From NCBI RefSeq assembly GCF_900459225.1, contig NZ_UHFH01000003.1, forward strand, positions 92,501 to 156,500: a DNA stretch of 64,000 nucleotides, read 5' to 3'. The stretch is from Streptococcus dysgalactiae subsp. dysgalactiae (GTDB taxonomy: Bacteria > Bacillota > Bacilli > Lactobacillales > Streptococcaceae). The notes beneath the pieces were generated by a model that saw only the letters and a list, made by a program, of their open reading frames with translations, searched no databases and was not told the origin of the DNA. The position numbers were made by a program, and so were the translations under genes. Below, one piece after another: positions 16,551 through 42,555 of this stretch. Numbering within the stretch: the first letter of the stretch is position 1; each line of letters starts with the position of its first letter.

Positions 16551-16574
16551 ATCTGTAACTATTTGTCGTCCAAT

Positions 16575-16650
16575 CTAGCTGAAATATTGTCCAGCTAGGA
16601 AGAACAGCAGTTAAATCAAACTGATAAAGTCAGATTTAGCTGCTCTTTTT
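16575..16650 (+). promoter_or_regulatory. Structured rpoB leader with terminator-like hairpin
   Basis: The leader holds two hairpins. The first pairs CTAGCTG (16575-16581) with CAGCTAG (16592-16598). The second pairs AGCAGTTAAATC (16606-16617) with 16633-16644, followed by CTTTTT. The second has the form of an intrinsic terminator placed between promoter and gene, so it may attenuate rpoBC transcription. No known riboswitch family was recognised. Confidence 0.65.
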
Positions 16651-37180: not shown

Positions 37181-37576
37181 ATGTATAATAAAGTGATTAT
37201 GATCGGTCGTTTGGTGGCTAAACCAGAATTGGTAAAAACAGCTACCGATAAGCATGTAGCACGTCTCTCTTTGGCTGTTAATCGAAGATTTAAAAATGCT
37301 TCAGGAGAGCGAGAAGCAGATTTTATTTCTGTTGTTGTTTGGGGAAAGTTAGCAGAAACCTTAGTTTCTTATGCTAGCAAAGGTAGTTTGATGTCTATTG
37401 ACGGTGAACTTAGAACCCGCAAATATGATAAAGATGGGCAAGTGCATTATGTGACAGAAGTGCTATGCCAGTCTTTTCAGTTATTAGAAAGTCGTGCTCA
37501 GCGTGCGATGCGAGAAAATAATGTCGCCAATGACTTGGTAGATCTGGTTCTAGAAGAGGAGGAGTTGCCTTTTTAA
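37181..37576 (+). CDS. ssbB: Competence-induced single-stranded DNA-binding protein SsbB
   Basis: This 131-aa OB-fold SSB has the start MYNKVIMIGRLVAKPEL. It is shorter than the housekeeping SSB, without a glycine-rich linker, but ends in the acidic tip EEEELPF used for partner binding. It protects incoming single-stranded DNA during transformation. The SigX box upstream and strong AAGGAGG site support a competence gene. Confidence 0.93.
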   Translation: MYNKVIMIGRLVAKPELVKTATDKHVARLSLAVNRRFKNASGEREADFISVVVWGKLAETLVSYASKGSLMSIDGELRTRKYDKDGQVHYVTEVLCQSFQLLESRAQRAMRENNVANDLVDLVLEEEELPF

Positions 37577-37741
37577 GCAGGTGTAGTTAATCCTTTAGAG
37601 GTGTAATATTATTTGAAAAGGTCTCTTTTTTACGAGTTGAATGCTCTAAAAATATTTCTGAGTCAGCTCTTTTTATCAATTGTTAGAATATTACCAAGAA
37701 ACCGAAAATTCCATAAATAACAAAAAATAAGTTAAAAAGTC

Positions 37742-37770
37742 TTGACAGTGTTTAAAAAAAGGGTTAGAAT
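37742..37770 (+). promoter_or_regulatory. Promoter of the leader peptide and ABC transporter operon
   Basis: TTGACA (37742-37747) and TAGAAT (37765-37770) lie 17 bp apart. Transcription should start near 37777, about 33 nt before the leader ATG. Confidence 0.8.
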
Positions 37771-37809
37771 GTTAAACAATTAAGACGAAAGAAAACAGGA
37801 GGTGCTGAT

Positions 37810-37872
37810 ATGGTATCAAATAGCACAACTCATACGATGACTAAGCGTTATTACTATAGCTTCTTTAGATAG
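37810..37872 (+). CDS. Leader peptide rich in Tyr and Phe (20 aa)
   Basis: ATG 37810 is preceded by a near-perfect AGGAGGTG ribosome site and opens a 20-codon frame ending at TAG 37870-37872. The peptide ends KRYYYSFFR: codons 14-16 are TAT TAC TAT and codons 18-19 TTC TTT. A clustered run of one amino acid near the end of a tiny, well-initiated ORF is the mark of a ribosome-stalling attenuator. The stop codon abuts the first of several alternative hairpins, and the operon downstream encodes an ABC importer of a family that includes tryptophan transporters. The likely sensed amino acid is tyrosine. Confidence 0.85.
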   Translation: MVSNSTTHTMTKRYYYSFFR

Positions 37873-38060
37873 TGTTTGTAGACATGGGAAACATGGGTAC
37901 AAACACGGTAAACGTTACGTTTGTATCTATGAGGCTATGGCTGTTTGAGTTGTTTGTCCGCATAGATGATATATCTAAGTGGACACCATACAGCGCGTAT
38001 TTTGTTATACCATTGCACGTGTATAAGACCATTTAGGTAATTCTAAATGGTCTTATTTTT
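37872..38060 (+). promoter_or_regulatory. Transcription attenuator with alternating hairpins and terminator
   Basis: These pairings can be drawn directly. A: 37872-37880 with 37898-37906 (9 bp). B: 37898-37904 with 37919-37925 (7 bp), excluding A. C: 37925-37931 with 37961-37967 (7 bp), touching B at one base. D: 37955-37959 with 37981-37985, enclosing TAGAT/ATCTA (37963-37967 with 37973-37977), excluding C. Antiterminator: CTAAGTGG (37975-37982) with CCATTTAG (38029-38036). Terminator: 38024-38036 with 38043-38055, 13 perfect bp, then T5. A ribosome stalled at the Tyr codons permits A and C, leaving the antiterminator free. A ribosome at the stop codon blocks A and favours B, D and termination. 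Confidence 0.75.
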
Positions 38061-38085
38061 ATGCAATAAAGAAAGAGGAAATAAC

Positions 38086-39048
38086 ATGGGATTTAAAAAA
38101 GCATCACTCATCGCCTTTATAAGCTTGGCAACTTTATCACTGGCTGCTTGTCGCAAGGAGGCAGGGCAGGCCCATCAATCAGCTAAGGTCGGCATTATTC
38201 AATATGCAGAACACTCTGCTTTAAATGCTGCGCGTGAAGGATTTATTGAAGCCTTGGCAGAAGGAGGTTTCAAGGAAGGCAAAACGCTGACAGTGACAAC
38301 TCGAAATGCTCAAGGGGATCAAGCAAACCTCCAAACCATGGTAGAACAGTTAGCTGGTAAAAATGACTTGAATTTTGCCATTGCTACACCAGCTGCTCAG
38401 GCTTTGTTAAATAGCGATCAAGAGACGCCAGCTGTTTTCACGGCAGTAACGGATCCTGTTTCAGCAGGCCTAGTGGATTCTTTGGCTAAGCCAGGTGGGA
38501 ATATGACAGGATCAATTGATGCCACAGATGTAGCTGGGCAAATTGATTTATTGACAAAGGCTTTGCCACAAGCTAAAACCGTTGGTATTTTTTACAATTC
38601 AAGCGAGGTGAATTCTGAAGTACAGGCCAAAGCAGCTAAGAAAGCTCTGGAGAAAAAGGGGCTCAAGGTTCTTGTTAAGACGGTTACCACAACTAATGAT
38701 GTGCAACAAGTCATGACGAGCTTAGCTAATCAAGTAGATGCCGTTTACCTACCGACAGATAATACTGTAGCTTCTACAGCCAGCACTATCGGTGATATTC
38801 TGAAAGAAGCCAAGGTGCCTTCTATGGGAAGCGACGATTCTTACCTATCAGCTGTTCTGTTTACATCAGGAGTAGACTACAAAGCTATTGGGAAGCAAGC
38901 CGGCAAAGAAGCGGTAGCTATTCTAAAAGGGAAAAGTCCAGCAACTATTAAGGTAGCGAAACCTGAAAAGGCTAAAATTGCCGTTAATGACGACATGGCA
39001 AAAGCATTGGGGATGGATTCCCAAGCCATCAAAGCACTTGGGAAATAG
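38086..39048 (+). CDS. ABC transporter substrate-binding lipoprotein (PF04392 type)
   Basis: This 320-aa lipoprotein has a signal peptide and lipobox LSLAAC. The mature part resembles ABC_sub_bind proteins, the family of the streptococcal tryptophan-binding protein TrpX (VGIIQYAEH, TPAAQALL, FTAVTDPVSAGLV). ATG 38086 has a GAGGAA site. It is the first structural gene after the attenuator. A paralogue follows at once and a permease comes next. The Tyr/Phe-rich leader suggests an aromatic amino acid as ligand, which is an inference. Confidence 0.87.
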   Translation: MGFKKASLIAFISLATLSLAACRKEAGQAHQSAKVGIIQYAEHSALNAAREGFIEALAEGGFKEGKTLTVTTRNAQGDQANLQTMVEQLAGKNDLNFAIATPAAQALLNSDQETPAVFTAVTDPVSAGLVDSLAKPGGNMTGSIDATDVAGQIDLLTKALPQAKTVGIFYNSSEVNSEVQAKAAKKALEKKGLKVLVKTVTTTNDVQQVMTSLANQVDAVYLPTDNTVASTASTIGDILKEAKVPSMGSDDSYLSAVLFTSGVDYKAIGKQAGKEAVAILKGKSPATIKVAKPEKAKIAVNDDMAKALGMDSQAIKALGK

Positions 39049-41054: not shown

Positions 41055-42284
41055 TTAAGCGACATTGAATCCGTGCTGTTGTGCAAAACGAACAGCGTCT
41101 TGAACAGACATCGTTTTATCAGGATTTCGTATTTGGGTCAGTCCTTGTAAAACAGGATTGTAGTCTTCTTTTTTCCGTAGCACTTGGTACACAGAAACCA
41201 GTAATCTGCGACAGATAGCGATAATTGCTTTTCGGTGTCCACGGCGTTTCTTGAGTTTAAGATACTTGTTTCTCAATTCTGGATGCTTATCAGATTTGAC
41301 AACAGCGTTTGCGACTTGAACAAGGAAAGGTTTCAGGTATTTTCCCCCTTTAGAAATGCGCGTAGAAAACTTTTTCCCAGCACTTTCATTGTTGGCAGGG
41401 ACAAGTCCAGCCCAGGAACACAGTTTGGCAGCTGAATCAAAGACTGTCATATCGCAATCAATTTCTGAGATGATTCTGAGAGCAGATAAGTCTTCTTTGA
41501 AACCAGGTACGGTTTGAATTAGTTTTACTTGATGTTGATAGTCTTGTCCCAGTTCCCGAATCATCTGTTCCAAATCTTCTTTACAGATAGCTAAGGCATC
41601 ATAATGAGCTTTGATAACTCTGATTTTCTCAGCTTGTTCAGGTGTTAAAGCACCTTCCATAGCGATTTCAAAGTCTTGGACTTTATTCTTCATTCTCTTG
41701 TGAACCAGTTGCTCAATACTGGGTTTATCTTGTGGATTGTCAAGGATGCTCTTAATAATAGCTTGAGCACTTTTTCCGAAAACATCGGAAACGACACTTG
41801 CAATTTGAAGATTAGACCAAGTGAGACAGTTCTGATACCGATTTTTCTCGCCAACCTGAAGTTGTGTTAGCTTCATGCGATATCTGAAAAGGTCACGGAG
41901 TTGTCTGATTTTGAGCTGGGGAATAAAGCTAGAAGCAACTAAATCATGCTTGAAAAGGTCGGCTATCCATTGCGCATCTTTCTTGTCGGTTTTCTTTCCT
42001 CGAATAGCTTTGACATATTTGGGATGAGCTAAGCAGACATTGGTCTGTTCTTCTAGGATATTGAAACCAGGAATCCAGTATTTACCAGTAGATTCCATAC
42101 AGACATCGAAGCAGGAATAATATTCCAACCAATCACGTAGCTGAGTGAGTCCATTGGTAAAGGTGGAGAAGCGTTTACGATGGTACTCAGTAATTCCTTG
42201 ATTATTGGTGATGGCAATAACTGCTACGACAAAAGTTTTATGCACATCAATTCCACAACAATTAGGATAAACGATTTTTAACAT
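41055..42284 (-). CDS. IS110-family transposase
   Basis: This 409-aa recombinase has an N-terminal RuvC-like DEDD domain: GIDVHKTF supplies the first Asp, CMESTGKYW the Glu and KTDKKDAQWIADL two Asp residues. The C-terminal Tnp20 region (SWAGLVPANNESAGK, GGKYLKPFLVQ) carries the expected Ser. The frame is intact. The start ATG 42282-42284 follows AAAGGAG; the longer frame upstream is not needed. Confidence 0.92.
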   Translation of the reverse strand: MLKIVYPNCCGIDVHKTFVVAVIAITNNQGITEYHRKRFSTFTNGLTQLRDWLEYYSCFDVCMESTGKYWIPGFNILEEQTNVCLAHPKYVKAIRGKKTDKKDAQWIADLFKHDLVASSFIPQLKIRQLRDLFRYRMKLTQLQVGEKNRYQNCLTWSNLQIASVVSDVFGKSAQAIIKSILDNPQDKPSIEQLVHKRMKNKVQDFEIAMEGALTPEQAEKIRVIKAHYDALAICKEDLEQMIRELGQDYQHQVKLIQTVPGFKEDLSALRIISEIDCDMTVFDSAAKLCSWAGLVPANNESAGKKFSTRISKGGKYLKPFLVQVANAVVKSDKHPELRNKYLKLKKRRGHRKAIIAICRRLLVSVYQVLRKKEDYNPVLQGLTQIRNPDKTMSVQDAVRFAQQHGFNVA

Positions 42285-42555
42285 AGGAGGAAACTCCTTT
42301 CTCAAAAGTAGAGAAGCTCCTATCCCTTGACTGCTCTTCCCTTTCACAAACGAGTCGCTTATCCAAGTATAAGTTTACGTGCTCTTAGTCACAGTTAGTT
42401 GTGCTTGATAGGAAGAACCACACCTATAATTATTCGAGGTAGTAGCTGAACTACTCACTTACTCTCCTCCCCGTGATTTGTAGTAGTGATAGGGCATCTC
42501 ACTGTTATTATAGACAAAAATAAAGAGCGTAACACCTTTTTATTCAGTGTTATGC
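42285..42555 (-). ncRNA. Candidate bridge RNA region of the IS110 element
   Basis: IS110-group elements encode a structured bridge RNA in the non-coding end upstream of the transposase, which pairs with target and donor DNA. This element has about 250-270 nt of non-coding sequence in that place and only about 40 nt at the other end, so the RNA should lie here on the minus strand. I see several short inverted repeats but have not folded it, so its limits are unknown. Confidence 0.45.

Follow-up and report, generated by a model that had tools for sequence, protein, structure and literature searches.

A probable ribosome-mediated attenuator with Tyr/Phe leader codons ahead of aromatic amino acid importer and biosynthesis genes in Lactobacillales

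The trp and phe operons of enteric bacteria are governed by ribosome-mediated attenuators, with which the element described here shares a short ORF carrying a run of the regulated codons, overlapping helices, a choice between terminator and antiterminator, and a predicted OFF state without translation. Firmicutes are thought to control their amino-acid genes mainly by the T-box, an antiterminator that senses tRNA charging, and aromatic amino-acid regulation in low-GC Gram-positives is said to have been treated by Panina et al. in 2003. The accessible part of a report on a His leader in bacilli described the presence of regular leader peptides in Firmicutes as notable and stated that, apart from the atypical ermC leader, its authors knew of no earlier demonstration of a leader-peptide system beyond Proteobacteria and Actinobacteria (PMC2965389). 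By its description in the accessible text of PMC8632094, the uORFC-13-1 motif is similar to our element in that a DAHP synthase gene is preceded by a terminator and by a proposed ORF for a leader peptide with Phe codon(s), but the gene is aroF of Acholeplasma, another taxon, and the motif has 24 representatives. In Streptococcus agalactiae, the gbs1262 and gbs2033 elements were reported in 2015 before paralogous ABC operons as candidate riboswitches conserved in Lactobacillales, and all 11 elements of that study outside Rfam yielded a short RNA and a long transcript from one start (PMC4448216, accessible part). The gbs2033 element resembles ours in its length (270 nt), its position before an ABC importer that is paralogous to a second such operon, and its occurrence in Lactobacillales, including E. 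faecium aroFBC-tyrA; it differs in that the accessible text describes a new riboswitch without a leader peptide. Judged by these described features and not by sequence, the two are very probably identical, and it appears that a terminated and a read-through RNA from one start are already on record for the apparent S. agalactiae homologue (PMC4448216, accessible part). The element was not found in the accessible text of PMC6431027 or PMC6296669, and within the open PMC literature (subscription papers lie outside this scope) no title or abstract start names it as a leader-peptide attenuator.

The window analysed here is a stretch of 64,000 nucleotides from Streptococcus dysgalactiae subsp. dysgalactiae, whose relevant features are collected in Table 1. 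An earlier note on this DNA had pointed to a 20-codon ORF with a strong ribosome site and the C-terminal sequence KRYYYSFFR, and such an ORF is present as described, with its ATG at 37810 and a UAG stop codon at 37870-37872. Its translation is inferred from the ribosome site and from the family-wide comparison below. Upstream, the putative -35 and -10 hexamers are separated by 17 nt. The importer binding protein is closest to those of S. castoreus (83% identity) and other streptococci, and homology suggests an aromatic amino acid as the substrate. An IS110-family transposase gene in the opposite orientation (41055-42347, minus strand) lies between the permease and ATPase genes. The importer genes are consecutive in 32 of the loci read, unlike in this IS110-split copy; in the window's isolate, the insertion may thus have weakened the importer or altered its expression. 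Just 5′ of the leader lies a gene (37181-37576, plus strand) for a 131-residue protein that was recognised by eye as single-stranded-DNA-binding-like.

Table 1. Features of the leader and of the importer genes in the window (all coordinates are window positions)
Feature	Coordinates	Strand	Pairing or basis
Sigma-70-type promoter (putative)	37742..37770	+	-35 TTGACA 37742-37747, -10 TAGAAT 37765-37770; consensus match only
Shine-Dalgarno AGGAGGT of leader ORF	37797..37803	+	sequence; frame control in relatives
Leader ORF MVSNSTTHTMTKRYYYSFFR	37810..37872	+	sequence; counterparts in relatives
Regulatory codons Tyr-Tyr-Tyr-Ser-Phe-Phe	37849..37866	+	codon table of 121 non-redundant leaders
Helix E	37854..37940	+	37854-63/37931-40 and 37866-71/37924-29; leader codons paired; predicted default OFF
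Helix A	37873..37905	+	37873-80/37898-905 and 37883-86/37892-95; starts directly after the stop codon
Helix B	37892..37931	+	37892-904/37919-931, 13 bp; excludes A, C, E
Helix C	37925..37967	+	37925-31/37961-67 and 37933-34/37958-59; excludes B, D, E
Helix D	37956..37984	+	37956-61/37979-84 and 37963-67/37973-77; sequesters the antiterminator strand
Antiterminator	37974..38037	+	37974-82 with 38029-37; arms covary
Intrinsic terminator	38023..38060	+	38023-36/38043-56 plus U run
Substrate-binding protein 1, PF04392	38086..39048	+	nearest solved chain by sequence 6HNI (tyrosine-bound CD0873)
Substrate-binding protein 2, PF04392	39078..40037	+	nearest solved chain by sequence 6HNI
Permease, PF02653	40078..40962	+	domain match
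Importer ATPase, PF00005	42588..43391	+	domain PF00005; insertion sequence parts its gene from the permease gene

Searches with Rfam models placed the leader in a catalogued family. The full-length model RF02863 ("Enterococcus sRNA 2410"; positions 1-196) aligned with 37856-38046 at 54.2 bits (E 3.9e-8), below its gathering score of 61 bits, and it begins inside the leader codons. The same model matched 215 of 395 genomes of the order, inferred to be Lactobacillales, in 52 of 80 genera and often in two or more copies per genome; 98 of the 395 genomes have a match above the gathering score. Its matches in a class-wide sample comprised 35 of 398 genomes, five of them outside the order, and the leader DNA itself matched 100 of the 197 genomes of the genus (E up to 0.001). 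As far as sequence can tell, RF02863 and the window element are the same element, yet Rfam classes this homologue as an sRNA gene. The statement in the earlier note that no described family was recognised thus did not hold, the element being RF02863 and very probably also the published candidate riboswitch (PMC4448216, accessible part). The RNA was already known; what is new for it is the proposed mechanism, leader-peptide attenuation, itself of a known kind. Like the T-box, the element would be a Firmicute antiterminator sensing tRNA charging; a T-box was rejected, however, as none matched at the gathering score in the window or up to an E of 5 in 37600-38100. The other Rfam matches to 37600-38100 were weak and far below gathering scores; one of them, to the trpB motif (RF04312), led to a sister element elsewhere in the genome (see below).

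The genes behind the element fall into two classes, both concerned with aromatic amino acids. In 165 of 210 loci read, the first downstream gene was one of the importer cluster, and in 41 it was a gene for shikimate or Tyr/Phe synthesis; a gene of the latter kind came second in one locus, and other genes followed in three. Some of these loci were gathered via the importer's binding protein, so the sample leans to importers. Its 110 non-streptococcal loci (L090-L199) comprise the 30 best RF02863 matches and 80 among the matches listed, which were hand-picked for spread of genera and for second copies; these are not a random draw, and two repeat the 30 best. Representatives scored over the curated NCBIfam cut-offs as shikimate dehydrogenase, DAHP synthase, 3-dehydroquinate synthase, chorismate synthase, and prephenate dehydrogenase, with a prephenate dehydratase match below its cut-off. 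As in an attenuator, the downstream genes would thus make or import the same amino acid that the leader encodes. This bears on the possibility that the terminated leader is itself the product, a trans-acting small RNA, as RF02863 and a study of E. faecium class it. The accessible part of that study reports sRNA_2410 as a 195-nt RNA with two transcripts by Northern blot (PMC5593968), and the RF02863 match of 54.2 bits (E 3.9e-8) on the window fits such a class; however, 207 of the 210 loci lie ahead of aromatic importer or biosynthesis genes, and the RNA contains an ORF as well as an antiterminator that excludes the terminator, which makes a function in trans scarcely credible.

The aromatic codons of the leader are conserved throughout the family. 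A seven-codon motif, exemplified by KRYYYSFFR, HTYFYGYFR, NNFYFSYFR, and NSFDFSFFR, scored at least 6 of 7 in 207 of 210 loci with a located core. The three below this score (L063, L064, and L227) were left out and the window was added; removal of near-duplicates reduced the resulting 208 leaders to 121, of which 33 are streptococcal and 88 are not. In this non-redundant set, Tyr or Phe occupies codon 1 in 109 leaders, the second in 115, and codons 3, 5, and 6 in all 121. Five aromatic codons occur in 103 leaders and four in 18. The register was set by the best match to the aromatic pattern, which favours these counts; in nearly all of the rows shown, its distance from the aligned core was the same. 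Codon 1, for which TAT, TAC, TTT, and TTC are used, lies outside every helix counted. Trp is absent from the motif in all 121 leaders. The earlier note had made loss of the Tyr run a refutation test; the aromatic run is kept, albeit as Tyr-or-Phe and not as Tyr alone. Such clustering of conserved Tyr-or-Phe codons near the end of an ORF, and the layout as a whole, in which a candidate ribosome binding site leads a short ORF between promoter and terminator, are those of a ribosome-mediated attenuator as far as sequence comparison goes. The stop codon follows the motif directly in 106 of the 121 leaders, one codon earlier in 2, and three later in 13, so that the 5′ arm of helix A lies at or just past the stop in most of them. 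As a frame control, we searched for an ATG with a Shine-Dalgarno match of at least 5/6, within 30 codons and open into the motif; one was found for 87 of 121 leaders in the leader frame, compared with 0 and 1 of 121 in the two alternative frames. This rules out a coincidental ORF. Among the loci set aside, the two from Gemella (L063 and L064) have a shorter ORF ending YYYSSS or YYYSHS, and L227 has a YYFGWFS motif with one Trp.

The leader RNA is strongly structured. Its 324 nt fold at -106.8 kcal/mol, whereas 100 shuffled sequences average -68.97 (z -7.93). All pairs of A, C, D, the antiterminator, and the terminator are canonical in the window sequence. Of the four chained helices listed in the earlier note, A, C, and D were recovered, whereas its helix B (37898-37925) is only a piece of a 13-bp helix; since this longer B pairs 37892-904 with 37919-931 and overlaps the 5′ arm of C, B and C are mutually exclusive, and B also overlaps most of the 3′ side of A. 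The proposed pairing of an antiterminator strand (37975-37982) with the 5′ arm of the terminator was likewise found, as canonical pairs between 37974-82 and 38029-37. Missing from that list for 37742-38060 was helix E, although it is present in the minimum-energy structure. E competes with B and C, as 37919-940 can pair with the leader codons, with the 3′ side of A, or with 37958-967.

Covariation was assessed on a MAFFT alignment (A1) of 118 sequences, obtained from the 121 leaders by leaving out L016, L051, and L185 for want of a clear terminator. The ON structure (A, C, and antiterminator) was paired in 92.0% of cells, with double changes in 21 of 31 pairs and 128 double-change cells versus 21.3 in shuffles. 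The OFF structure with E (E, A, D, and terminator) reached 92.1%, 37 of 49 pairs, and 495 cells versus 140.6, and the OFF structure with B (B, D, and terminator) 88.9%, 26 of 36 pairs, and 414 versus 128.4. None of 500 shuffles attained any of the observed measures, a comparison inflated by the relatedness of the sequences; sliding the partners by 1 to 3 columns, a control that preserves this relatedness but is biased towards a structure taken from one member of the alignment, left only 28-44% of cells paired. Together with the z-score, these controls rule out a chance fold. By piece, pairing amounted to 98.4 and 91.7% in A, 90.1 and 95.4% in B, 90.3 and 89.0% in C, 80.6% in D, 78.1 and 95.1% in the antiterminator, 91.3 and 86.7% in the terminator, and 97.9% and 98.9% in E (14 pairs counted), so that the exclusive helices are 78-99% paired over the 118 non-redundant leaders. 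The inner pairs are the weakest part of D, kept in 52/110 to 111/114 cells. The counted structures omit three pairs: 37872-37906, the outermost of A (52/111), 37862-37932 (38/118), and 37863-37931 (112/117). The most telling covariation is at 37856-37938, paired in 118 of 118 sequences (UA 61, UG 38, AU 19): position 37856 is the middle base of the third aromatic codon, A for Tyr or U for Phe, and its partner follows. In the antiterminator, 37979-38032 is GC in 41, GU in 38, AU in 26, CG in 4, UG in 1, and other in 8. The compensating pairs that the earlier note had set as a refutation test are thus conserved, with double changes in the helices of the ON structure and of each OFF structure, and mutually exclusive, covarying helices link the ORF to the terminator, as in attenuators.

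Collectively, these features make it probable that the element is a ribosome-mediated transcription attenuator that senses whether tRNA-Tyr and, for most family members, also tRNA-Phe are charged. With charged tRNAs, the ribosome would get to the stop codon and occlude the 5′ arm of A, freeing the 3′ part of that helix to pair with 37919-931 as B, which would block C, whereupon D would form, the antiterminator strand would be hidden, and the terminator would end transcription (OFF). A ribosome stalled on the first aromatic codons, presumably upon starvation, would cover the 5′ arm of E and leave A free to form. A would block B, C would form next, as the inferred co-transcriptional order has it, and block D, and 37974-82 would capture the 5′ arm of the terminator, letting RNA polymerase enter the importer genes (ON). 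Without translation, E and A would form together, followed by D, again giving OFF. The attenuation logic of the earlier note thereby acquires a second OFF route in place of a single one, with helix E adding the OFF state without translation. Likened by these features to the enteric trp and phe attenuators, the family differs in the extra relay helices B and D between ribosome and terminator, in the pairing of its leader codons in helix E, and in its spread across Lactobacillales, before importers and shikimate operons.

Ribosome positions were modelled by folding the 118 leader RNAs to the end of the terminator 5′ arm with the ribosome-covered stretch removed. Without a ribosome, the medians were 0.98 for E, 0.80 for D, and 0.01 for the antiterminator; with a ribosome at the stop codon (RNA from 37885 on) they were 1.00 for B, 0.82 for D, and 0.02 for the antiterminator. 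A stall (RNA from 37869 on, edge at 37868) with A preformed gave 0.97 for C, 0.82 for the antiterminator, and 0.00 for D. The antiterminator exceeded D in 28, 33, and 90 of the 118 RNAs, respectively, the first two counts being foldings contrary to the model, and in 68 of 118 under the stall without forcing A. In a scan of the ribosome edge, also without forcing A, the median for the antiterminator climbed from 37858, exceeded D at 37864 to 37872 with a maximum of 0.69 at 37868-37870, and fell to 0.10 at 37874 and 0.02 at 37878; it returned from 37894, past any ribosome position on the leader ORF. The leading edge of a stalled ribosome is located about 12-13 nt 3′ of the first nucleotide of the codon in the vacant A site. 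By this measure, the antiterminator exceeded D in 59, 59, and 68 of 118 RNAs for stalls at codons 1 (~37862), 2 (~37864), and 3 (~37868), and in 43 and 35 for stalls at codons 5 (~37874) and 6 (~37876). Over much of the family, modelled folding therefore favours the antiterminator when the ribosome edge has cleared E without reaching A. A stall at codon 5 or 6, both Phe codons in the window copy, is predicted to be mostly OFF or weak, and since codons 1-3 are all Tyr there, this copy may read mainly Tyr.

The window's own RNA behaved less clearly. OFF was favoured by 15 kcal/mol with the ribosome at the stop and by 16 kcal/mol without a ribosome, whereas under the stall A with C and the antiterminator (-27.0 kcal/mol) stood against A with D (-27.8 kcal/mol), leaving D at 0.95 and the antiterminator at 0.05 at equilibrium. 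In the model, a stall thus shifts the window copy from firmly OFF to a balance. Because D still beats C at equilibrium, kinetics must be invoked; C is complete 17 nt before D, so that the order of synthesis may decide. For the earlier note, this means that the opposed chains from stall through A and C to the antiterminator, and from stop through B and D to the terminator, are borne out by masked folding over the family but find the window's own sequence near balance, and that the ribosome-constrained folds proposed there give OFF at the stop without giving ON under the stall.

A sister element allowed the leader codons to be compared with the binding pocket of the importer. RF04312 (trpB motif) occurs in the window's own genome (L234, at G000:C3:1270906-1271015), where its leader, MAQTQHLTNWQSWHR, precedes a TrpX-type binding protein. 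In the loci read, the Rfam model starts 3′ of the Trp codons of the leader, and the element precedes importers of the TrpX type or, judging by eye, trpB. Upstream of all 38 best-scoring loci, namely 8 loci (16 of 59 genomes matched) and 30 loci (114 of 198 matched), lay a leader ORF encoding W-[QN]-x-W or WQSR. TGG at codon 2 is built in, as the Trp motif sets the register; TGG recurs at codon 5 in 35 of 38, codon 4 reads AGC in 18 loci and AAC in 11, AGA stands at codon 7 in 26, and a stop at codon 8 in 28. RF04312 thus resembles the window element in that a Ser or Asn codon, an Arg codon, and the stop of its leader peptide stand in a similar register, but it has TGG in place of TAY/TTY at codons 2 and 5 and is shorter. 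It is apparently the gbs1262 element (PMC4448216, accessible part). The binding protein behind the Trp element of the window's genome scores 443.3 against the NCBIfam TrpX cut-off of 390 and is nearest to 3LFT, whereas the window's two binding proteins stay below that cut-off (284 and 346) and are nearest to 6HNI. According to the accessible part of PMC6816091, 6HNI (CD0873) holds tyrosine, 3LFT (SP1069) tryptophan, and 3LKV (VC_1101) phenylalanine, and Glu263 and Tyr279 of CD0873 are two selectivity positions. Among 124 non-redundant proteins behind Tyr/Phe leaders, the Tyr279 position is Tyr in 114 and Phe in 10, with Gln in 0 of 195 before dereplication; behind Trp leaders all 29 non-redundant proteins have Gln there, as do 31 of 31 before dereplication (7 of the 38 Trp loci had no binding protein of usable length or kind). 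The Glu263 position is Ser in 113, Ala in 7, Gly in 2, Glu in 1, and Asn in 1 of the former set, and Val in 28 and Ala in 1 of the latter; the window's two proteins have Ser and Tyr there. Leader codons and pocket residue go together, although leaders and importers may have split together once, so that the cases are not independent.

This agreement fits attenuation by tRNA charging better than a riboswitch, which leaves it to chance. A metabolite riboswitch that directly binds tyrosine, phenylalanine, or a precursor is what was proposed for the apparent S. agalactiae homologue (PMC4448216, accessible part), and much of the RNA is indeed highly conserved, with strong alternative helices. However, the overlap of the helices accounts for much of that conservation, the conserved stretch starts in the coding end of an ORF with a Shine-Dalgarno-led start in one frame only, and the sister element has Trp codons in the same register together with a correspondingly different pocket residue; moreover, no word beginning with "peptide" occurs in the main text of PMC4448216. 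We regard direct metabolite binding as very improbable. If the attenuator reading is true, there is no ligand to be found for either proposed riboswitch, the cargo of an importer can be read from its leader codons in the sequence, and the Tyr/Phe versus Trp difference is a natural experiment on a change of attenuator specificity. An order-wide family and its sister, catalogued as an sRNA, an ncRNA motif, and a candidate riboswitch, would then look like classical attenuators.

In the 88 leaders from outside the streptococci, the aromatic run is mostly preceded by Gln-Leu-Asn (Q in 55, L in 57, N in 69), with Leu encoded by CTG, TTG, TTA, or CTA, and LN precedes the Trp codons in many Trp leaders as well (examples for both families are L090, L119, and L248). 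Codon reading does not explain this conservation, for which shared ancestry or a function of the nascent chain at the stop codon may account. A pairing of the Gln-Leu-Asn codons (UGAAUA) with UAUUCA in the arm of A was weighed by eye and then dropped, as L065, L075, and L077 keep the leader without UAUUCA. In TnaC, the nascent peptide holds the ribosome in a Trp-dependent manner. By analogy, a QLNN..FSYFR-stop peptide could hold the ribosome at the stop codon when free Tyr/Phe is high, giving B and OFF; the use of synonymous codons for Gln-Leu-Asn, its LN part before the Trp codons, and the Arg that precedes the stop in most leaders are consistent with such an arrest, yet Gln-Leu-Asn is not the rule among the 33 streptococcal leaders, the Ser and Arg codons sit in helix E, which is able to explain their conservation, and Arg is lost in some copies (L051, L052, L061, and L220-L222). 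Arrest of this kind is decidedly unlikely to replace the reading of tRNA charging. A composite account also seems rather unlikely: Lactobacillales would hold a pair of homologous Tyr/Phe and Trp attenuators, split by codon replacement within a shared register as the pocket residue of the importers diverged, whose leaders are read out twice, by a stall at early aromatic codons (ON) and by a peptide-assisted QLN..SYFR hold at the stop (OFF). If this were true, one transcript would sense both tRNA charging and the state of the nascent chain.

Beyond the order, genomes of one family (loci L220-L222 and L224-L225) have a Tyr/Phe leader before a gene of the DAHP synthase cluster, with a chorismate mutase gene as well, by eye, and two of these genomes have a second leader before a gene of the prephenate dehydratase cluster. 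No leader was recognisable at L223, whereas leaders were recognised at L224 and L225; these three loci did not enter the registered set. Elsewhere in the window, four tRNA genes lie within positions 20-356, and a Lacto-rpoB RNA (RF01709) is found at 16561-16618 on the plus strand (72.4 bits).
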